Virus record (IMG/VR): IMGVR_UViG_3300047548_001509
Span: 1 to 64,000 of that record
DNA: 64,000 nucleotides
Source of the DNA: a virus
Reading direction: 5' to 3' (one strand)
Every line of letters begins with the position of its first letter. Position 1 is the stretch's first letter. The notes under the pieces were generated by a model that made no database searches, was not told the origin of the DNA, and saw only the letters and a program-made list of their open reading frames with translations. The position numbers and the translations under genes are program-made. Shown here in pieces: positions 37,971-47,686 of this stretch.

Positions 37971-38332
37971 CCAGAAAAGAGATCAATACAATGGGTAAAC
38001 TTTATGAGTCTGTTGTTTTTGTTGCAAAACAACAAGACCTATCAAGCGAGCCTTCCCCTGCTGATAAATTTCATACACAGTTAAAGTCAGTTCTTGGTCA
38101 AACAACAAATCCAGATGAATGTGGTGACCCAGGAGATATTGAATTAGCTTTATCCGACTTAAAAAAACTTCATGAATACTCCAAAAAACTGCACTCTTTA
38201 ATTCAAAATAAACAAGATGTTGATGGGTGGATGCAATCAAAAATTACTAAAGCAGCTGATTATGTTTCAGAAGTCTATCATCGTTTAGATTCTATAGAAT
38301 CAGAAGGAGATATGTGTTGTGATGAATTTTAA
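37967..38332 (+). CDS. Hypothetical helical phage protein
   Basis: A 121-residue protein whose ATG overlaps the previous stop (ATGA); an internal ATG eight codons later (MGKLYESVV) is an alternative. The C-terminal GWMQSKITKAADYVSEVYHRL is a motif seen in many T4-like phage proteins of unknown role. It overlaps the next gene by 14 nt. Confidence 0.7.
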   Translation: MTRKEINTMGKLYESVVFVAKQQDLSSEPSPADKFHTQLKSVLGQTTNPDECGDPGDIELALSDLKKLHEYSKKLHSLIQNKQDVDGWMQSKITKAADYVSEVYHRLDSIESEGDMCCDEF

Positions 38333-38756
38333 AGAATTCTACATTGAAAAAACAATTATTGGGCTCGTTGAAGAAATAACAATTGACGAGCTTGGTCCTG
38401 TTCCATGTAAGGTTGATTCAGGTAATGGTGCTTATAATGTTCTTCATGGTGAAAATATTAGACATGGATCTGGAACAGTAAAGTTTGATACTGTTCATAA
38501 TAAAACTCTTCAAAAAGATGTTGTTGATACTATTGTTATCAATGTTGGAGCTGGTAATACAGAAGAGAGACCCATAGTACTGTTCGATATCAAGCTTGGT
38601 GATAAGGTGTTTAAGAATGTAAAATTCTCTATTGGTAATAGAACCACAAACGAATATCCTGTATTAATCGGTGCTACATTTATCAAAGAACTTGACGCGC
38701 TTATTGATATTTCCCAAAAAAATATATTTTCTCAAAATTTGACAGTTGATTTATAA
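38319..38756 (+). CDS. Retropepsin-like (RimK-associated protease family) protein
   Basis: A 145-residue protein with an aspartyl-protease-like core: LGPVPCKVDSGNGAYNVLHG, where DSG takes the place of the catalytic DTG/DSG, then EERPIVLFDIKLGD, NVKFSIGNRTTNEYPVLIGATFI and an ending ALID. This matches the retropepsin-like family next to RimK in bacteria and is found in some marine T4-like phages. The start MMNFKEFYIEK resembles a capsid-targeting peptide. It closes the 33.6-38.8 kb cluster. Confidence 0.78.
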   Translation: MMNFKEFYIEKTIIGLVEEITIDELGPVPCKVDSGNGAYNVLHGENIRHGSGTVKFDTVHNKTLQKDVVDTIVINVGAGNTEERPIVLFDIKLGDKVFKNVKFSIGNRTTNEYPVLIGATFIKELDALIDISQKNIFSQNLTVDL

Positions 38757-38848
38757 TCCGCGGAGACTAACTATTCTTAGAATAAGAAAATTGGGAAGCT
38801 GGGAAGCCAAAAGCAAAAACAGTATTTCAGTTGTTTTTCATAAATTCT

Positions 38849-38856
38849 AATAAATA
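38849..38856 (+). promoter_or_regulatory. Late promoter of the DUF1549/DUF1501 cassette
   Basis: AATAAATA, one mismatch from consensus, ends 8 nt before the DUF1549 ATG. An imperfect inverted repeat (AACTAT..TAGAAT at 38769-38783 and ATTCTA..ATAGTT at 38844-38859) overlaps it, so the promoter may carry an operator. Confidence 0.6.
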
Positions 38857-38864
38857 GTTAGAAT

Positions 38865-40643
38865 ATGAGAACGTTAATAGCAACTGCAATTATCTTGGTA
38901 TCATCAGTATATGGACAAGATTACAATAAGCTTAATAATTATTCACAAGCTATTGATAATATCTTAGAGTCTCAATATCAGAAAGTTAAGCTTAAGGGTA
39001 ATCCAATAATCAATGATGATCAATTTGTACGAAGAGCATATCTAACAATTATAGGAAGAATTCCAACAGTTGATGAATATGATGCATTTATTACAAATAA
39101 TCTTCCAACAAAGAGACAGGAATTAATTAAACATCTTCTTAAACACCCGGGTTATACATCTCATATGTATAATTTCTGGGCAGATGCTCTTAGATTGAGA
39201 GAAAGATTATCACCAGTTAACAACTTCAATGGTGGTCCTTATATTCAATACATTAAAGATCAAATTAAGAAAAACGTTCCGTATACACAATTTGTTAAGG
39301 ATCTTTTACAGTCATCGGGGTTATATTACACTAATCCAGCAACGGGTTATTATTACAGAGATCTTGGAATGCCTCTTGATAATTTAATCGCAACAATGAA
39401 AGTATTTGGTGGTACAGACATTTCATGTGCTCAATGTCATGATGACCCTTTCCAAGATTTCTCTCAATTAGAGTTTTATGAACTTGCAGCATTTTTTGTA
39501 CAGACAGATCTAAGAAATAAAACTGATAAAGAAATGCAAGAGAAAGTTGCTTCTCTACGAAAAGAAGTTGATGAACTAATTAAGCAAGATCCAATGAAGA
39601 ATAGAGGTCTCAACAATCAGATTAATAATTTCGTTCGAGCAACTCAAACAGCTGTTGAGGTAATCGAAAATAAAACAATTAAGCTTCCGCATGACTATCA
39701 ATATACAGATAAAAAGCCAAATGAAGTAATACAACCAAAGTTTCTTAAATCATCTGGAGAAATAAAGAATAAACACGACTTAAGAATTGATGCTATTAAT
39801 TGGCTAACATCACCACAACATCCAACATTTACTAAAAATATATCTAACAGATATTGGAGACTCATTTTTGGCCGTTATATTATCGAAGAATTTGACAACA
39901 TTCAAGATTCTGCTGTACTATCTGGAGATTTAATGACCATGCTTCAGAAAATAATGATAGATTGTGGATATAATACACAGCAATTTTTATATGTACTTCT
40001 CAATACAAAGCTTTTCCAAAGAGAAATGTATGATGGTGCATATGCAAATTCTGAATCATTTGTCTTTATTGGTCCTGTAAAGCAAAGACTTTCAGCTGAG
40101 CAATTGTGGGATTCTGTTCTGTCTCTTACATTGGAAAAGCCAGAACAATTTCAAACAACATTCCAGATTGAATACTCAAAAATTATGCAGACTTATTTGG
40201 AAGACATGACAATTGAAGGTATCAAGAAAAAGCTTGATCAATACAATAAGGTCATGCAAACAAAATATGATGGTGCTCCTAAGTATAAAAATTACATGTT
40301 AGTCCGCGCTTCTGAGGTTAATGATTTAACAGGTTCTAACAATGTGATAAGTCAACTTGGTAGATCAGATAGAGAATTAATTCAAACATCTTCTCTCGAG
40401 GGATCTGTTACGCAAGTAATATCTTTCATGAATGGACAGATTGGGGAGATTGCAACATCAAAAGACTTGAGATTAATGCAATTACTACAGGGTAAATCAC
40501 CTGCTGATAAAATTGAGATTGTTTTCAAAGCAGTTCTTTCTAGAAAGCCAACTATTGCTGAGAAGTCTCAATTTGCTGGTGTTCCGGACGATGATATCAT
40601 CTGGGCGTTGATTAACACAAATCAATTCAAATTCACTAAATAA
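38865..40643 (+). CDS. Secreted DUF1549-DUF1553 protein (planctomycete/verrucomicrobial type)
   Basis: A 592-residue protein with a signal peptide (MRTLIATAIILVSSVYG^Q). The DUF1549 part (about 25-215) has FVRRAYLTIIGRIPT, WADALRLRER and the hallmark CAQCHDDPFQDFSQLEFYELAAFF (quoted in part), with Cys188, Cys191 and His192 in a CxxCH. The DUF1553 part (about 300-590) has NRYWRLIFGRYIIEEFD and KQRLSAEQLWDSVL. In planctomycetes and verrucomicrobia these two domains are fused and sit next to a DUF1501 gene, as here. Their substrate is not established. The CxxCH is family-typical, but haem binding is unproven. It is shorter than most cellular homologues. Confidence 0.93.
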   Translation: MRTLIATAIILVSSVYGQDYNKLNNYSQAIDNILESQYQKVKLKGNPIINDDQFVRRAYLTIIGRIPTVDEYDAFITNNLPTKRQELIKHLLKHPGYTSHMYNFWADALRLRERLSPVNNFNGGPYIQYIKDQIKKNVPYTQFVKDLLQSSGLYYTNPATGYYYRDLGMPLDNLIATMKVFGGTDISCAQCHDDPFQDFSQLEFYELAAFFVQTDLRNKTDKEMQEKVASLRKEVDELIKQDPMKNRGLNNQINNFVRATQTAVEVIENKTIKLPHDYQYTDKKPNEVIQPKFLKSSGEIKNKHDLRIDAINWLTSPQHPTFTKNISNRYWRLIFGRYIIEEFDNIQDSAVLSGDLMTMLQKIMIDCGYNTQQFLYVLLNTKLFQREMYDGAYANSESFVFIGPVKQRLSAEQLWDSVLSLTLEKPEQFQTTFQIEYSKIMQTYLEDMTIEGIKKKLDQYNKVMQTKYDGAPKYKNYMLVRASEVNDLTGSNNVISQLGRSDRELIQTSSLEGSVTQVISFMNGQIGEIATSKDLRLMQLLQGKSPADKIEIVFKAVLSRKPTIAEKSQFAGVPDDDIIWALINTNQFKFTK

Positions 40644-40647
40644 TACT

Positions 40648-40854
40648 ATGACAAAAACTGACCAGCGTTTAATTTGGGAAGCTTATGTGGATTCATTTGA
40701 AGATAGTGAACTTCAAATGGGTATTGAAGTAGAAATGGAGCATACAGATGACCCAAAGATTGCTGAGCAGATTGCCAGGGACCACCTTGCTGAAAATCCA
40801 ACGTATTATACAGACTTAAAAAGATGTGAAGATCAAACAGGAAAAAAATTATGA
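40648..40854 (+). CDS. DUF5661-like small phage protein
   Basis: A 68-residue acidic protein with the compact pattern ELQMGIEVEMEHTDDPKIAEQIARDHLAENPTYY (quoted in part: GIEVEMEHTDDPKIAEQ), as in the DUF5661 proteins found in many phages and phage-like contexts. It is inserted between the DUF1549/1553 and DUF1501 genes with 4-nt spacing on each side, so the three are one transcription unit. Function unknown. Confidence 0.78.
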   Translation: MTKTDQRLIWEAYVDSFEDSELQMGIEVEMEHTDDPKIAEQIARDHLAENPTYYTDLKRCEDQTGKKL

Positions 40855-42086
40855 ATAAACTAAATCGTCGCGAATTCGTTCTCAACCTAGCTGCTACAGG
40901 GTTGGGTGTTACTGTATTACCAACCATTAATGCTGCTCCAGCTCCACGAAAAGCTGAGCATATCATTTACTTGTTTATGAATGGTGGTATGTCACATCTT
41001 GATACATTTGACCCAAAAACAAATGAAGAAGTAAAAGGGGAATTTAATACCATTAAAACTAATACTGGAGCTGATATTAGCGAACATCTACCTAATTTAG
41101 CTAAACTTGGAGATAAAATGGCTATTATCCGCTCAATGATGGTTACAACTGGAGCTCACGAACAAGCTCAATATCTTCAGAGAACATCTTATAAAAAGAT
41201 TGGTACAATTGTTCATCCAAATTTAGGTGCATGGATGTGTAATGTTCAAGATGATAAGAAACTTCGTGCTATTCCACAGAATGTTCTTATTTCAGGACCA
41301 GCAGATCATCCAGGTTCAGGTTGGATGCCAAAGAAATATGCACCGGTTCCGATCCAAGATCCAATGAGAGGTCTTGAAAATTCTGCTTTGAAAAATAAAG
41401 ACGAGTTTTCAAAGCGTATTCAAATCCTCCAACAACTTGAAAAAGATTCTCTTAAAGCTATAAACCCACAACAAAAAGCTTACAGTGAGTTTTATGATCA
41501 AACAATTAGACTGCTCAATTCAACTGAGTTAGATGTATTTGATCTTTCAAAAGAAACAAAAGAAACACGCGATAAATATGGTGATAACCGTTTTGGTCAA
41601 GGTTGTTGTCTTGCAAAACGCCTTATTGAAAAAGGTGGTGTGAAGTTTATTGAAGTTCAAGATGGTGGATGGGATACACACGTTAATAACTTTGAAGCTC
41701 TTGAAACAAAACTTAAGATTTTTGATACAGCTATTTCTGCTCTTGTTGAAGATCTCAAGCAGTCTGGTTTGCTTGAAAAAACATTAATTGTCATTTCAAC
41801 AGACTTTGGTCGTACTCCTGTAATTAATGTTAATAATGGTCGTGACCACCACCCGGGTTGCTTTAGCGGATGTTTGATTGGTGCTGGAATTAAAGGAGGC
41901 CAAGTACATGGGACAACTGACGAAAAGGGAATGAAAGTTGTTGATAAGGTTGTGTCTGTGCAGGATTTTAATGCAACTATTGCAGCTGCAGCAAATATAC
42001 CTGTTGATCTTGTTCTTCACTCACCAGAAGGAAGACCATTTAAAGTCGCCGATAAAGGTGTACCAATTCAAAGTCTTCTAGTTTAA
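40851..42086 (+). CDS. Tat-exported DUF1501 protein
   Basis: A 411-residue member of DUF1501, an alkaline-phosphatase/sulfatase-fold family. It has a twin-arginine signal (LNRREFVLNLAATGLGV, AAPA cleavage region) and the family landmarks LFMNGGMSHLDTFDPK, GQGCCLAKRLIEKGGVKFIEV, GGWDTHVNNF, STDFGRTPVIN, NGRDHHPGCFSGCLIGAG and GTTDEKG. Conserved Asp and His residues are therefore intact. In the planctomycete/verrucomicrobial group, DUF1501 genes follow DUF1549/1553 genes and the products are exported. Here the pair is in a phage late-type operon; the phage presumably acts on the host envelope or surface polymers with it, which is inference. Confidence 0.95.
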   Translation: MNKLNRREFVLNLAATGLGVTVLPTINAAPAPRKAEHIIYLFMNGGMSHLDTFDPKTNEEVKGEFNTIKTNTGADISEHLPNLAKLGDKMAIIRSMMVTTGAHEQAQYLQRTSYKKIGTIVHPNLGAWMCNVQDDKKLRAIPQNVLISGPADHPGSGWMPKKYAPVPIQDPMRGLENSALKNKDEFSKRIQILQQLEKDSLKAINPQQKAYSEFYDQTIRLLNSTELDVFDLSKETKETRDKYGDNRFGQGCCLAKRLIEKGGVKFIEVQDGGWDTHVNNFEALETKLKIFDTAISALVEDLKQSGLLEKTLIVISTDFGRTPVINVNNGRDHHPGCFSGCLIGAGIKGGQVHGTTDEKGMKVVDKVVSVQDFNATIAAAANIPVDLVLHSPEGRPFKVADKGVPIQSLLV

Positions 42087-42122: not shown

Positions 42123-42935
42123 ATGAGCATACTTTGCTTGGGTAATGGTTTGGTTGGAAGAGAATTCCAAAGACGGGGTATTCAGTCCCTTGGAAGAGAA
42201 CTTATTAATATTACACATCAGGCTAGTGTGTTTGATAGTTATGCTTTGCAAGAACAATTAGATCAGTTTGATACTATTATAAATTGTATTGCATTTACAA
42301 ATACAAAGCCAAAAACAAAAGAAGACTTTTCATTTAACGTATTGGTTAATACCAATTTTGTTAGAGATCTTGCTATTTTTTGTGACGAACACAATAAAAA
42401 ATTGGTCCATATCTCAACCGGGGATATCTATGGAGATTCACAAAGACTTCGAATGTCTAAAGCATTTAAGGAGACAGATTCGACAATCGTGATGACAGAG
42501 TATTCTGCAGCAAAATACCTTGCAGAACAATTCATTGATAAAGATAAACATCTCATCTTAAGACCTCGTTTGATTTTTGGACCAGATAATCTGTCTAGTA
42601 ACTTAATAACAAAACTATACAAATATACATCATTTACCCCTTATATAAATTCATTCTGTTCAACACGAACATTAGTTGATGCTGCTCTCACACTAATAGA
42701 CAAGCAAGCAACGGGGGTGTTTAATGTATGTAACTCTGGTATCTCTACTATGTTGGAATTAGCAGAGATAATTAGAGATAAATTCGATAAGTCGAAAAAA
42801 ATAGAACATGCTCAGATTGATTCAATTAATAATGTTCTTGATATTAAGAAACTTTCACTATACTATAAACCAACTCCTATTGTTTTTGAATTTCAGGATA
42901 TCTATCCAAAATTTCTTGAAACCATAAAGGCTTAG
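42123..42935 (+). CDS. NAD-dependent epimerase/RmlD-like SDR protein
   Basis: A 270-residue Rossmann-fold enzyme: LCLGNGLVGREF (dinucleotide loop, residues 4-15), IINCIAFTNT, LVHISTGDIYGDS and the catalytic YSAAK (Y-x-x-x-K), then LRPRLIFGP and a GVFNVCNSG segment. It probably reduces or epimerises a nucleotide sugar, as does the RmlD-like gene at 26 kb, and could supply the glycan cluster. It converges with the next gene and overlaps it by 59 nt. Confidence 0.8.
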   Translation: MSILCLGNGLVGREFQRRGIQSLGRELINITHQASVFDSYALQEQLDQFDTIINCIAFTNTKPKTKEDFSFNVLVNTNFVRDLAIFCDEHNKKLVHISTGDIYGDSQRLRMSKAFKETDSTIVMTEYSAAKYLAEQFIDKDKHLILRPRLIFGPDNLSSNLITKLYKYTSFTPYINSFCSTRTLVDAALTLIDKQATGVFNVCNSGISTMLELAEIIRDKFDKSKKIEHAQIDSINNVLDIKKLSLYYKPTPIVFEFQDIYPKFLETIKA

Positions 42936-43455: not shown

Positions 43456-44076
43456 TTACAATACGCCTCGGTTATTCTGAGCAAATTCAACGAATTTATA
43501 AAATTCAGCCCGGGATGCTCCATCAATATCATGGAAAGCTCCAGACACTCTCGCTGTGCGCATGCAACTAGGGTGCTTAATTCCGCGTGCTGAACAACAT
43601 GTATGATTTGCTTCAATCATTACTGCAACACCTTTATTATCAATGCATACACTATCGATAGTCTCGTGGATCTTCTTAGTAAGAGATTCTTGAACTGATG
43701 GTCTACGACTAATGTGGTCAACAATTCTATTTAATTTTGACAATCCTATCATTTTGCCATCTCGAGATGGGATATAAGCAACATGCGCATACCCAGAAAA
43801 GGTAAGCAGATGATGTGCGCAAAGTGATACTAATGGAATATTAGTTTGACATACCATTCCATCGTATTGTTCATCATTTGCAAAAGATGTAATAGTTGGT
43901 GGATCAGTAAAAAGGCCTTTCATAAGGTCATTAATCCAGGATTTAATAACTCTTTTAGGTGTGTCCTGCATATGTGGATCAGTATCCCAATTAATATTGA
44001 GAGACTTAAGTACATGACCCATATGGGTAGTAGCATCTATAATATTTTGTTCTGTAATATTAATTTTATCGATCAT
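43456..44076 (-). CDS. folE: GTP cyclohydrolase I FolE
   Basis: FolE opens the guanine ring of GTP to give dihydroneopterin triphosphate, the first step to 7-deazaguanines. The 206-residue protein keeps the zinc ligands Cys86 and His89 (SLCAHHLLTF) and Cys160 (ANHTCCSARGIKH), plus GLSKLNRIVDHISRRPSVQE (quoted in full, 20 residues). Length is normal for the family (about 200-220). Together with QueD, QueE, QueF and DpdA in this window it supports base modification rather than folate supply. Confidence 0.95.
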   Translation of the reverse strand: MIDKINITEQNIIDATTHMGHVLKSLNINWDTDPHMQDTPKRVIKSWINDLMKGLFTDPPTITSFANDEQYDGMVCQTNIPLVSLCAHHLLTFSGYAHVAYIPSRDGKMIGLSKLNRIVDHISRRPSVQESLTKKIHETIDSVCIDNKGVAVMIEANHTCCSARGIKHPSCMRTARVSGAFHDIDGASRAEFYKFVEFAQNNRGVL

Positions 44077-44144
44077 AATATAATATTATCTACTTTCCCA
44101 TAGATGTCAAATATTTTTTTGATTGCCAATATATTATAATTGTT

Positions 44145-44288
44145 TCAGCTCCGAGTTCTTTTTAGGTTACACTCTGTATCTCTAATAGTCGATAAGTTAA
44201 ACATATTCATGTACTTTCGACAGGTTGTGTTATGTTGTCTTAGATGGGAGTTTGTTACCTCTTTAAATTCTCTGTTACATATTAAGCA
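44145..44288 (-). pseudogene. Fragment of a C2H2 zinc-finger (MucR-like) protein
   Basis: A 47-codon minus-strand frame with no start codon reads CLICNREFKEVTNSHLRQH and goes on to NTTCRKYMNMFNLS. C-x2-C-x10-H-x4-H followed by 'Y...F' is the small zinc-finger found at the ends of many phage homing endonucleases and MucR-like proteins. A stop codon directly precedes it and TGA ends it, so it looks like the residue of a lost mobile endonuclease. The rest of this ~300-nt gap between FolE and the next gene holds nothing I can recognise apart from the promoter. Confidence 0.6.
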
Positions 44289-44362
44289 TCATCTCATCTA
44301 CATATTTACAGCGAATGGGTTATGATATCCACAACTAATACTAGTAATATTCTACTTTACTT

Positions 44363-44370
44363 ACTAAATA
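44363..44370 (+). promoter_or_regulatory. Late-type promoter ACTAAATA, leaderless layout
   Basis: Two mismatches from TATAAATA but at the exact 5-nt distance from ATG 44376; it decides the start of the next gene. Confidence 0.6.
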
Positions 44371-44375
44371 TCCAT

Positions 44376-44729
44376 ATGGAAAAATTCAAACAACTTTTTG
44401 AAGAAGCACAAAGATTAAATGAGAGTGATCAGATTTTTGGAAATGTTAAATTAATTCCAACACCGAATGATGTTGTTAAAGGCATTGGTAATTTATTAGC
44501 AAAACCTTTTAAAAAGGGCGTCGCACAACAATCTACACAACAATCTACTAACCAATTACAGCAATCTACTGACCAACAACAATCTCCAGTTCAAAGAAAA
44601 GAAAAAGGGACGATACTATATTTTAGAATGTATGATTCTAAATTACCAAACCCTCTTTTTATTAGATATGATAGGAGGACAAAGCATATAACCTTCATTT
44701 CAGAAAATGATTTCAAAAAAATGGTTTGA
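44376..44729 (+). CDS. Hypothetical protein with Gln-rich repeat and capsid-targeting-like start
   Basis: The start at 44376 is chosen because of the promoter spacing and because the product then begins MEKFKQLFEEAQRLNE, like the T4 internal-protein leader MKTYQEFIAEA. The frame is open 18 codons further up. Residues about 48-72 are a low-complexity Gln/Ser/Thr stretch (QQSTQQSTNQLQQSTDQQQ) encoded by an irregular CAACAATCTAC repeat. The C-terminal 40 residues form a small beta-rich unit (TILYFRMYDSKLPNPLFIRYD). Confidence 0.75.
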   Translation: MEKFKQLFEEAQRLNESDQIFGNVKLIPTPNDVVKGIGNLLAKPFKKGVAQQSTQQSTNQLQQSTDQQQSPVQRKEKGTILYFRMYDSKLPNPLFIRYDRRTKHITFISENDFKKMV

Positions 44730-44759
44730 TTTATTTAGGAAGTATCTCATAATTAATTT

Positions 44760-45437
44760 ATGAGTAATTTTATTTCAACAAAAGTTATTGAATTGGGTTC
44801 AAGTGCGTTCAGACAGTGGAGAGCAACACACAGCCATTGCCAATATATTCATGGGTACCAGCTTAAAGCAAAATTTTGGTTTACATGTAGTAAATTAGAT
44901 GAAAAGCACTGGTGTGCTGATTTTGGAGGTCTTAAGCCGTTAAAGGAAGCTTTGCAAGCAGTATTTGATCATAAATTACTCGTAGCAGCTGATGATCCCT
45001 GCCTTGAAGATTTTAAATCTCTCGAACAAAAAGGTGTTGTAAAATTGTCAATTTTTCCAAAGGGTGTTGGTATTGAAAGAGCTGCTGAATATTGTTTTGA
45101 AGTTGCACAAGATTTTATTCACCAGACGTATGGACCAAGAGTTCAAGTTAGTAGAGTAGAAGTATTTGAACACGAAGATAATTCAGCTGTTTATGAATCT
45201 TGTGCAAAATATGAAAAATATTTATCTAAAGTACAATCAATGATTGCAGAAGCAATTTCACAACCAGATGAAAACCCACAGGATGGAAGTGTAACCGGTA
45301 CTATGACCTCAATTGAAGAGTCTCCCTGGGGTACACCGGTTACAGAATTAACAGTCACACCACATCAGCCAGCACAGATCTCACAACAAGTAACCTCTGG
45401 TCGTGGTAATTGGTTTGCTGGTACTTCTTGGCAATAA
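44760..45437 (+). CDS. 6-pyruvoyl-tetrahydropterin synthase/QueD-like protein, extended
   Basis: The N-terminal 150 residues fit the T-fold QueD/PTPS family: FRQWRATHSHCQYIHGYQLKA, with Cys27 and His31 at the QueD spacing, CADFGGLKPLKEAL and FDHKLLVAADDP. The third zinc ligand of QueD (His33) is Tyr here (HGY instead of HGH), and a 75-residue Ser/Thr/Pro-rich tail is added, so it may have a changed reaction or a binding role. Similar 'IHGY' proteins occur in marine T4-like phages. The true QueD is more likely the one encoded after QueE. Confidence 0.8.
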   Translation: MSNFISTKVIELGSSAFRQWRATHSHCQYIHGYQLKAKFWFTCSKLDEKHWCADFGGLKPLKEALQAVFDHKLLVAADDPCLEDFKSLEQKGVVKLSIFPKGVGIERAAEYCFEVAQDFIHQTYGPRVQVSRVEVFEHEDNSAVYESCAKYEKYLSKVQSMIAEAISQPDENPQDGSVTGTMTSIEESPWGTPVTELTVTPHQPAQISQQVTSGRGNWFAGTSWQ

Positions 45438-46199
45438 TTATTTTGCTAAATCAAGTACTTCAACAATGTGTTTGAGAATCTCAGAACGTACGATGTCTTC
45501 TGTAGTGAACTTTGCACAGAAGATATCATGTTCTTTTGATAGATCAGTATTAAAAGCATTAAACACCCTGCGAAATCCAGAATCTTTAATATCTGATTGA
45601 TTACAATCTCCTATTACGGCATACTTAGATTTATTACCAAAACGGGTTAGTATAGTTGCACATTCCTTAGGTGAGAAATTTTGTGATTCGTCCACAATTA
45701 CAAATGTTCTATGAAATGTTAGACCACGGCAGAAATTGACAGGTATACCTTTAATTAACCCGTGTTGAAAAAGATACTCCCCTGTACCATTTCTAGTTAG
45801 TTCATTTACTTTATCAATAAGAGGCATAGACCAAGGAAGAAATTTATCATCAATTTCACCAGGAAGTGAACCCATTTTATTATCAGCAGACTCAGCAATA
45901 GAACGAATATAAAAGATTTTATCAACATACCGCTCTTTAAGTGCTGTTAACGCGGCATAAACAGCTAGAAAAGTTTTGCCACTGCCTGCAGGACCATCAA
46001 TTAAAACCATTTTTGTTTTGTTTCTTTGCATCAAATGTAAAACATCCAGATGTCTCTGAGACAATTCAAAAGGTTGGTATATCTCAAAATTTGTTACCGC
46101 ATTTTGATTTAATGATGTGTATATGTCATCAACTAATATATCGTTAGTTTTTGACCCGTCAACTTTATGCGATTTACGTATCGCTTTTTTAGTAGACAT
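45438..46199 (-). CDS. phoH: PhoH-like P-loop ATPase
   Basis: The 253-residue protein has Walker A DGPAGSGKTFLA (about 68-79), a FYIRSIAES segment, GSLPGEIDDKFLPW, and Walker B FVIVDESQNFSPKE, then VIGDCNQSD. All are typical of PhoH-type ATPases common in marine phages; the role may be in RNA metabolism but is not settled. It converges on the QueD-like gene with zero gap. Confidence 0.92.
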   Translation of the reverse strand: MSTKKAIRKSHKVDGSKTNDILVDDIYTSLNQNAVTNFEIYQPFELSQRHLDVLHLMQRNKTKMVLIDGPAGSGKTFLAVYAALTALKERYVDKIFYIRSIAESADNKMGSLPGEIDDKFLPWSMPLIDKVNELTRNGTGEYLFQHGLIKGIPVNFCRGLTFHRTFVIVDESQNFSPKECATILTRFGNKSKYAVIGDCNQSDIKDSGFRRVFNAFNTDLSKEHDIFCAKFTTEDIVRSEILKHIVEVLDLAK

Positions 46200-46249
46200 A
46201 TAAGCTATTTAATAATTTGACATTAGGAAACAGGTGATTATAATTAGTA

Positions 46250-47059
46250 ATGATTGATATTGATAAAGAGTTTTTAACTGTCGGTGGTGTAGGTGGGGAA
46301 CCAGAAATTTTTGCAACACTCGAGGGTGAAGGCAGATATGTTGGACAACCTTCAATTTTTATTCGAATGGCTACATGTAATTTAACATGTAGTGCGTGGG
46401 CTTCTCCAGACTCTCCAAATGGATGTGATTCATATGTATCATGGTCGGTTAAGAACAAAATTACATTTCGTAAGGCATTTGAAATCTTAGAAGGGTTGAA
46501 TGCAATTCAACGACTAAAAGATGGTTGGATTCTAAAACTCACAGGCGGTGAACCATTTATTAGACAAAAAGAGCTTTATAAATTTGTTCAAGCTCTTGGT
46601 CAGGAATATGGAATAAACAAACCAAAAATTGATTTTGAGACAAATGGTACAATAATGCCAGATTGTAAAATGTGGGGATGGGATGATTCCAATAGTTTCT
46701 CAAACCTATGGATTGATAATAATGTAACGTTTACTACTTCACCAAAACTATCTACAAATGGTGATCCTGAAGAAAAGACATACAAGCCAGAAGTACTTAG
46801 ATTTTTGAAGAAAAATTATGCATGTTTTAAATTCGTGATTACAGGGGAAAGAGACATTGAAGAAATTTGGAGAAAATACGTAGAAGATAAAGAAGGGATT
46901 AATATCACAAGGGATATGATTTGGTTTATGCCTTGTTGTGGTTCTCGACAGGAGCATATTGAAAGAGCAACTACAGTAGCAGAGTATGCGAAATCAATGG
47001 GTGTTAACTTTTCTCCAAGGTTGCATTTGATACTCTGGGACAAAAGTCTAAGAGTGTAA
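46250..47059 (+). CDS. queE: 7-carboxy-7-deazaguanine synthase QueE
   Basis: A radical SAM enzyme that makes the 7-deazaguanine ring from carboxy-tetrahydropterin. The 269-residue protein has FATLEGEGRYVGQPSIFIRM, Cys43 and Cys47 of the cluster (CNLTC), and the third Cys59 in GCDSY, giving C-x3-C-x11-C instead of the textbook C-x3-C-x2-C. LTGGEPFIRQKEL is the SAM-binding GGE motif, and IDFETNGT follows. QueE proteins with a spaced third Cys are known. It is 18 nt upstream of a QueD gene. Confidence 0.92.
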   Translation: MIDIDKEFLTVGGVGGEPEIFATLEGEGRYVGQPSIFIRMATCNLTCSAWASPDSPNGCDSYVSWSVKNKITFRKAFEILEGLNAIQRLKDGWILKLTGGEPFIRQKELYKFVQALGQEYGINKPKIDFETNGTIMPDCKMWGWDDSNSFSNLWIDNNVTFTTSPKLSTNGDPEEKTYKPEVLRFLKKNYACFKFVITGERDIEEIWRKYVEDKEGINITRDMIWFMPCCGSRQEHIERATTVAEYAKSMGVNFSPRLHLILWDKSLRV

Positions 47060-47077
47060 TTAACATCTAGGTAATTT

Positions 47078-47686
47078 ATGGTAATAACAAAAAAAATCGA
47101 TTTCGAGATGGCACATATTGTGCGTAACGCATGGTCTCGAAGATGTTCACATAGTATTCATGGTCATAGCTACACAGCAGAGATCATGATTGAATCAAAA
47201 GAGTTTGATAGTGGTGGAATGGTTATGGACTTTGGTCTTGTTAAAAAATATATTCACCCATTTATCGATTCCTTTGATCATGCAACTATGTTGTGGAATC
47301 AAGATGACCCAGAGATTATATCATTATTTGAGAACAAATTTGAACGTGTAATTGTATCACCATTTACATCTTCTTGTGAGCAACAAGCCCGGTATTTTTA
47401 TTGGATTATTAATGAAATTATTGAATATGTAAAAGTTATAGACCCACAAGTTTCAAACCGATATGTATCAGTTCGTGGTGTGAGAATACACGAAACCAAA
47501 ACAGGAAGTGCATTTTATACGTCACATAATGCAAAATCAGAAGATAACAAATTTAAGTATACAGATGTGTATAATGATATTGTAAGTATTAAATTTTCTG
47601 ATGGTATAATTAGTGAATGGCCTAAAGAAATACAACATATCTATCATGATATTTTTGATATAGATCCACAGAAACTAGGAAATTGA
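47078..47686 (+). CDS. queD: 6-carboxy-tetrahydropterin synthase QueD
   Basis: A 202-residue T-fold enzyme acting between FolE and QueE. Zinc ligands are His13 (FEMAHIV), His28 and His30 (IHGHSY). The catalytic Cys is Cys23, one residue further from the HGH than in E. coli QueD (C-x4-HGH instead of C-x3-HGH). MVMDFGLVKKYI and DSFDHATMLW follow the family pattern, and the C-terminus is extended by about 70 residues. It forms an operon with QueE directly upstream. Confidence 0.88.
   Translation: MVITKKIDFEMAHIVRNAWSRRCSHSIHGHSYTAEIMIESKEFDSGGMVMDFGLVKKYIHPFIDSFDHATMLWNQDDPEIISLFENKFERVIVSPFTSSCEQQARYFYWIINEIIEYVKVIDPQVSNRYVSVRGVRIHETKTGSAFYTSHNAKSEDNKFKYTDVYNDIVSIKFSDGIISEWPKEIQHIYHDIFDIDPQKLGN

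Follow-up and report, generated by a model that had tools for sequence, protein, structure and literature searches.

The DNA analysed here (the window, 64,000 nt) was taken from an IMG/VR virus record of 82,782 bases, and positions 38865–42086 hold three nearly contiguous genes on the plus strand. The first (38865–40643) encodes a 592-aa protein with a PSCyt2 (DUF1549) and a PSD1 (DUF1553) domain, the second (40648–40854) a small accessory DUF5661 protein of 68 aa (PF18905, 6.2e-13), and the third (40851–42086) a 411-aa DUF1501 protein with a Tat-type signal. An operon leader with a late-type promoter motif precedes them (38832–38864, +). The upstream phage neighbour is a putative zinc-protease-family protein (38319–38756, +; PF05618, 1.6e-9), and the downstream neighbour is an RmlD-like short-chain dehydrogenase (42123–42935, +; PF04321, 8e-19). 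A preliminary description had assigned the three genes to these families by eye, and PF07583, PF07587, PF18905 and PF07394 all matched at the coordinates given above. An NCBIfam search returned no match for either the PSCyt2/PSD1 or the DUF1501 protein, hereafter the pair. Elsewhere in the window (43459–47683) and in the viral contig L178 (1336–2064), we observed genes for GTP cyclohydrolase I and two QueD-like PTPS proteins, with a QueE-like radical-SAM-type protein and a QueC-like ORF in the same region, both read by eye; together these genes look like a preQ0/7-deazaguanine pathway, perhaps for DNA modification.

Profile search identified the record as a T4-like phage by its gp23 major capsid protein (341–1819, +; PF07068, 1.7e-90) and gp20 portal. 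It also carries DNA polymerase, UvsX, helicases, ribonucleotide reductase and PhoH, so that gp23, gp20 and T4-type replication genes all lie on one record, and the gp23 gene puts the pair on a phage genome. No tRNA was found in the window or in the last 19 kb of the record. The window gp23 is approximately 34% identical to its nearest GenBank relatives, mostly T4-like cyanophages, whereas none of the GenBank phage records searched has the pair: PSCyt2/PSD1 had no match there, and DUF1501 had one partial match of 29%. A chimeric contig is ruled out, since independent contigs carry the pair and one of them, L002, also carries both flanks. The gene order of L002 is that of the window (zinc protease, PSCyt2, DUF1501, RmlD-like) at 63–92% identity, with 92% for the zinc-protease-family protein and 63% for the RmlD-like protein; this order and the gp23 gene on the record uphold the genuine phage context assumed in the preliminary description. 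The RmlD-like gene is retained beside the pair in L002 and lies outside the cassette elsewhere, and a DUF5661 relative at the cassette position was found in L019 only (44%). Cellular contamination of IMG/VR is ruled out for the main viral clade by the gp23 or T4-type genes on the same records; the exception may be L135, which falls among cellular sequences.

The promoter motif, AATAAATAG, sits 14 nt before the PSCyt2 ATG. Of the 74 window genes, 14 have NTAAATA in the 40 nt before their start, the gp23 capsid gene among them, against 1.1 expected; in relatives the counts are 72 of 212 genes (4.5 expected) and 41 of 153 genes (5.1 expected). Before the pair, the corresponding site reads TATAAATA or TAAATAAT in many viral relatives. 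The enrichment of NTAAATA fits a T4-type late promoter, as had been proposed for the operon. Because the cassette lies among replication genes in some relatives, late timing is not certain everywhere.

The first protein of the pair matched PF07583 over residues 30–214 (E 1e-36, 127 bits against a curated cut-off of 29.8) and PF07587 over residues 309–570 (E 1.1e-20, 75 bits, cut-off 28.5). The CAQCHDDP motif noted at the outset was found as CAQCHDDPF at residues 188–196, with a CxxCH haem-type motif at 188–192. CxxCH is present in all 46 viral and in 71 of 75 cellular PSCyt2/PSD1 proteins, and an alignment of 84 such proteins left only R57, C188, C191, H192 and R329 invariant. Since C188, C191 and H192 are among so few invariant residues, the alignment marks CxxCH as the family core. 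The aligned proteins have no conserved distal His or Met as a second haem ligand. The N-termini of the viral proteins read as hydrophobic and signal-peptide-like. The AlphaFold model (pLDDT 93.5) had no PDB match by fold at E <= 0.001, and profile comparison with PDB gave none at E <= 0.2. A relationship to DUF1800 was also considered; profile comparison gave a 58-column match with a probability of 26%, and homology is unsupported.

The DUF1501 protein matched PF07394 over almost the entire profile (positions 1–389 of 390; residues 35–409, E 2.5e-102, 343 bits, cut-off 27), and its N-terminus opens with the Tat-type motif NRREFVL. A loose twin-arginine pattern is present in 58 of 59 viral DUF1501 proteins of this type (A) and in all 43 viral copies of a divergent type B. 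The residues invariant among 123 aligned DUF1501 proteins include H103, D275, F319, R321, T322, N326, G330, D332 and H333. Both the Tat signal and the intact Asp/His motifs previously ascribed to this protein are borne out, the latter by H103, D275, D332 and H333, none of which varies across the 123 proteins. In Foldseek, the AlphaFold model (pLDDT 93.2) showed a fold-level likeness to FGly-dependent sulfatases and the alkaline phosphatase superfamily, with a best E of 8e-8 to sulfatases and a probability of 1.00 at a TM-score of only ~0.4; carbohydrate sulfatases, LtaS and arylsulfatase were among the matches. Profile search revealed a conserved helix-strand segment common to DUF1501 and sulfatases. 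In contrast to the FGly sulfatases, the window DUF1501 does not have the signature C/S-x-P-x-R, which rules out an ordinary sulfatase, and an invariant His is found at that spacing: a motif reading of the alignment, made by distance from T112 and not by superposition, would place H103 at the position of the nucleophile.

Both genes occur together in many viruses. A DUF1501 protein scan of IMG/VR yielded 24 contigs at 50–89% identity, and an alignment-based scan yielded 112 contigs with DUF1501 relatives. We retained the best 80 of these 112; their loci and the window together contain 46 viral PSCyt2/PSD1 genes, which reduce to 34 when near-copies at 95% are removed, and in all 46 cases DUF1501 lies immediately downstream on the same strand. 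The T4 gp23 capsid gene is present on 16 of the 75 records searched, and these 16 include members of both the window sub-clade and a sister sub-clade; a third viral sub-clade has a T4-type clamp loader and exonuclease near the pair. This search of viral genomes goes beyond the single phage copy first described, showing a widespread pair in three viral sub-clades. Among the proteins of a viral structure library there is one named “DUF1501 domain-containing protein”, which comes from an uncultured Caudovirales phage and is an uncharacterised UniProt entry; viral DUF1501 has therefore already been named by annotation pipelines. Our literature search found no paper on the pair as a phage system, in agreement with the preliminary description. 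The pair is a real phage tool and not an assembly accident, because about fifty virus fragments hold both genes together and strong selection acts on them. In many relatives a second DUF1501 lies no more than 10 kb from the pair (L006:1324-2583 and L012:5828-7084, among others); this is the B type, about 33% identical to A and with a Tat-type signal. Other large phages (L139, L140, L149–L163) have B-type DUF1501 but no PSD1.

The position of the pair varies within one phage group. In L006, L009 and L018, which are collinear with 66.2–77.3 kb of the window phage's own genome, the pair is flanked by the counterparts of the genes at 73513 and 73829, and DUF1501-B lies before the helicase gene; the window phage has neither at these points. 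In L008, L012, L017 and L019 the pair is immediately followed by the portal gene and its neighbour, and in the window and L002 it lies between the zinc-protease and RmlD-like genes. Both genes remain together at all three sites, and the flanking order is otherwise collinear. The gene orders thus indicate that the pair travels as a cassette. It has the properties of an auxiliary cassette, namely varying sites across related phages, host derivation and maintenance under selection.

Both protein trees unite the pair-bearing viruses in a single clade that branches from within Verrucomicrobiota sequences, supported by 99 in FastTree for PSCyt2/PSD1 and by an IQ-TREE SH-aLRT of 96 for each protein. 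The sister group in the DUF1501 tree consists of Akkermansiaceae UBA6138 and two other Verrucomicrobiota (95), and the same three viral sub-clades are recovered with either protein. Since both proteins give one viral clade among Verrucomicrobiota, the trees indicate that the pair was captured once from a verrucomicrobial genome and then co-inherited. The DUF1501 of L136, L137, L141, L144, L148 and L157 is nested among Planctomycetaceae, and its placement indicates an independent capture. These Planctomycetaceae-type contigs often have two DUF1501 genes close by, some beside DNA polymerase III-like genes. Pairwise dN/dS in the pair is about 0.05, with values of approximately 0.04–0.1 (dN ~0.02–0.15, dS ~0.3–1.6, the larger dS values being near saturation); between the window and L002, dN and dS are 0.08 and 1.45 for DUF1501 and 0.15 and 1.56 for PSCyt2. 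The function of both proteins thus appears to be conserved under strong selection.

The host of the window phage is probably a member of Verrucomicrobia, as suggested by the ancestry of the pair and by the SdhB of the pair-bearing sister phage L111. The latter is 77% identical to a protein of an Akkermansiaceae MAG, 70–74% to the best other Verrucomicrobiota and about 58–60% to Planctomycetota. The preliminary description had named Planctomycetes and Verrucomicrobia together. The PVC ancestry holds for both proteins in the trees with cellular homologues and is mainly Verrucomicrobiota, and the host assignment is drawn from gene trees and a sister phage. Two other markers were uninformative, namely the RmlD-like protein, which is only ~29% identical to Verrucomicrobia proteins, and the phage tmRNA, whose matches were limited to short conserved ends.

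Several further genes were observed in these viruses. tmRNAs with unusually long predicted tag peptides occur in pair-bearing phages (L111:13213-13623, L021:13195-13611 and L116:12942-13351), identified by Rfam RF00023 at ~133 bits in L111 and L021 and by ARAGORN in L116 only. L111:15324-18037 encodes an SdhB-type iron-sulfur protein of verrucomicrobial type, a ferredoxin and an inorganic pyrophosphatase, all energy-metabolism auxiliary genes. Directly 3' of DUF1501 in the same phage (L111:11205-11447) is a small ORF with a prepilin-like N-terminus (GTTLIENITVI...) and no Pfam match, and a phage ORF at L178:554-1306 shows, by eye, a papain-like cysteine peptidase motif (QGSYGACTGFG).

Cellular PSCyt2/PSD1 and DUF1501 pairs of Planctomycetota and Verrucomicrobiota share the families, the gene order, the CxxCH, the Tat motif and the active-site residues with the phage pair. 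The closest cellular DUF1501 proteins are 43–45% identical to that of the phage. The phage PSCyt2 proteins are compact (571–615 aa), whereas their nearest cellular counterparts are mostly 690–885 aa. Unlike the cellular pairs, the phage pair stands under a phage late-type motif, forms its own clade and often has a second divergent DUF1501 nearby. In the DUF1800 and DUF1501 pairs of other bacteria, DUF1501 is likewise directly downstream, but the partner family differs. DUF1800 followed immediately by DUF1501 was also seen in L167, L170, L171, L174, L175 and L176, in some of the same bacteria, and DUF1501 therefore has two alternative partner families. We know of no biochemistry and no function for either the PSCyt2/PSD1 or the DUF1501 family. 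Rhodopirellula has 41 copies of each PSCyt2/PSD1 domain (PMC2754498), and DUF1800–DUF1501 pairs travel with chitin synthase genes (PMC5122149). The chitin synthase neighbours, and the sulfatase neighbours cited below for PSCyt2, are cellular cases of DUF1501 or PSCyt2 genes lying next to polysaccharide genes. These reports, with those cited below on internal membranes, agree weakly with a surface-modifying role.

We tentatively propose, just short of believing it, that the pair is a late-expressed, exported operon of T4-like Verrucomicrobia phages that modifies the envelope or an exopolymer. A phage ancestor would have taken PSCyt2-PSD1 and DUF1501 once from a verrucomicrobial genome and retained them as a compact unit. 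The PSCyt2-PSD1 protein would be exported by Sec and probably bears a c-type haem at CxxCH, and DUF1501 would be exported folded via Tat. Their common target, in the periplasm or on the cell surface, would be an anionic component of the envelope or exopolymer that carries sulfate or phosphate groups. There, DUF1501 may serve as a metal-dependent enzyme of the alkaline phosphatase superfamily with an unusual active site, its catalysis and substrate being predicted, and the haem protein may serve as its redox or binding partner. Late alteration of the host surface could make the release of progeny through a polymer coat easier, reduce re-adsorption, or both. In outline this agrees with the preliminary description, which had suggested an exported two-enzyme system that might remodel surface polymers, block superinfection or help release.

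An exported pair might instead keep sibling phages from adsorbing by altering or masking a receptor polymer. The exported-looking proteins, their retention by phages and the late-type promoter motif would suit such superinfection exclusion. Other phages have acquired other DUF1501 types independently, which is consistent with a surface target that is selected in varied ways. However, late expression would come later than expected for most exclusion genes, and sequence data do not separate exclusion from release or from nutrient scavenging; we consider exclusion improbable as the main role. Still less probable is nutrient scavenging of the kind known from classical auxiliary metabolic genes, in which the pair would release sulfate, phosphate or sugars for phage synthesis from polymers of the host or its environment. 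PSCyt2 genes lie beside sulfatases in freshwater Verrucomicrobia (PMC5615132), and related phages have SdhB-type, ferredoxin and pyrophosphatase genes, but the gain late in infection would be small, and no transporter or sulfur/phosphorus genes travel with the cassette in the compared loci. To the same low degree, the pair may top up housekeeping of the PVC cell plan, giving envelope maintenance or redox support that keeps the cell intact until lysis. DUF1501 clusters are reported preferentially in PVC species having internal membranes (PMC4452313, PMC4960237), and a Rhodopirellula PSCyt2/PSD1 gene is tied to a stress-induced sigma factor (PMC2754498); however, the hosts already own both families, often in many copies, and the cell-plan role of the module is itself unproven. 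A virion component that attacks the coat at entry is highly improbable: the pair adjoins the portal gene in several relatives, but its position is not conserved, and virion proteins, which assemble in the cytoplasm, would not be expected to bear Sec or Tat signals.

The late envelope- or exopolymer-modifying operon that we favor also has a bolder form, which we regard as rather unlikely: a phage weapon or shield unlike known depolymerases, in which a haem protein and a DUF1501 with a His active site modify a Verrucomicrobia surface polymer late in infection. It would also be unusual for a phage to encode a protein with a c-type haem motif together with a partner exported by Tat. Few families are as expanded in Planctomycetota and Verrucomicrobiota as PSCyt2/PSD1 and DUF1501, and the phage version of the pair is reduced, compact and strongly selected. 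This version thus offers a minimal expressible version of the pair and a natural assay in phages with and without it, as well as a marker with which phages of uncultivated Verrucomicrobia may be recognised. If the pair is indeed such a weapon or shield, it would reveal what reaction lies behind one of the largest protein expansions in PVC bacteria that still await an explanation.
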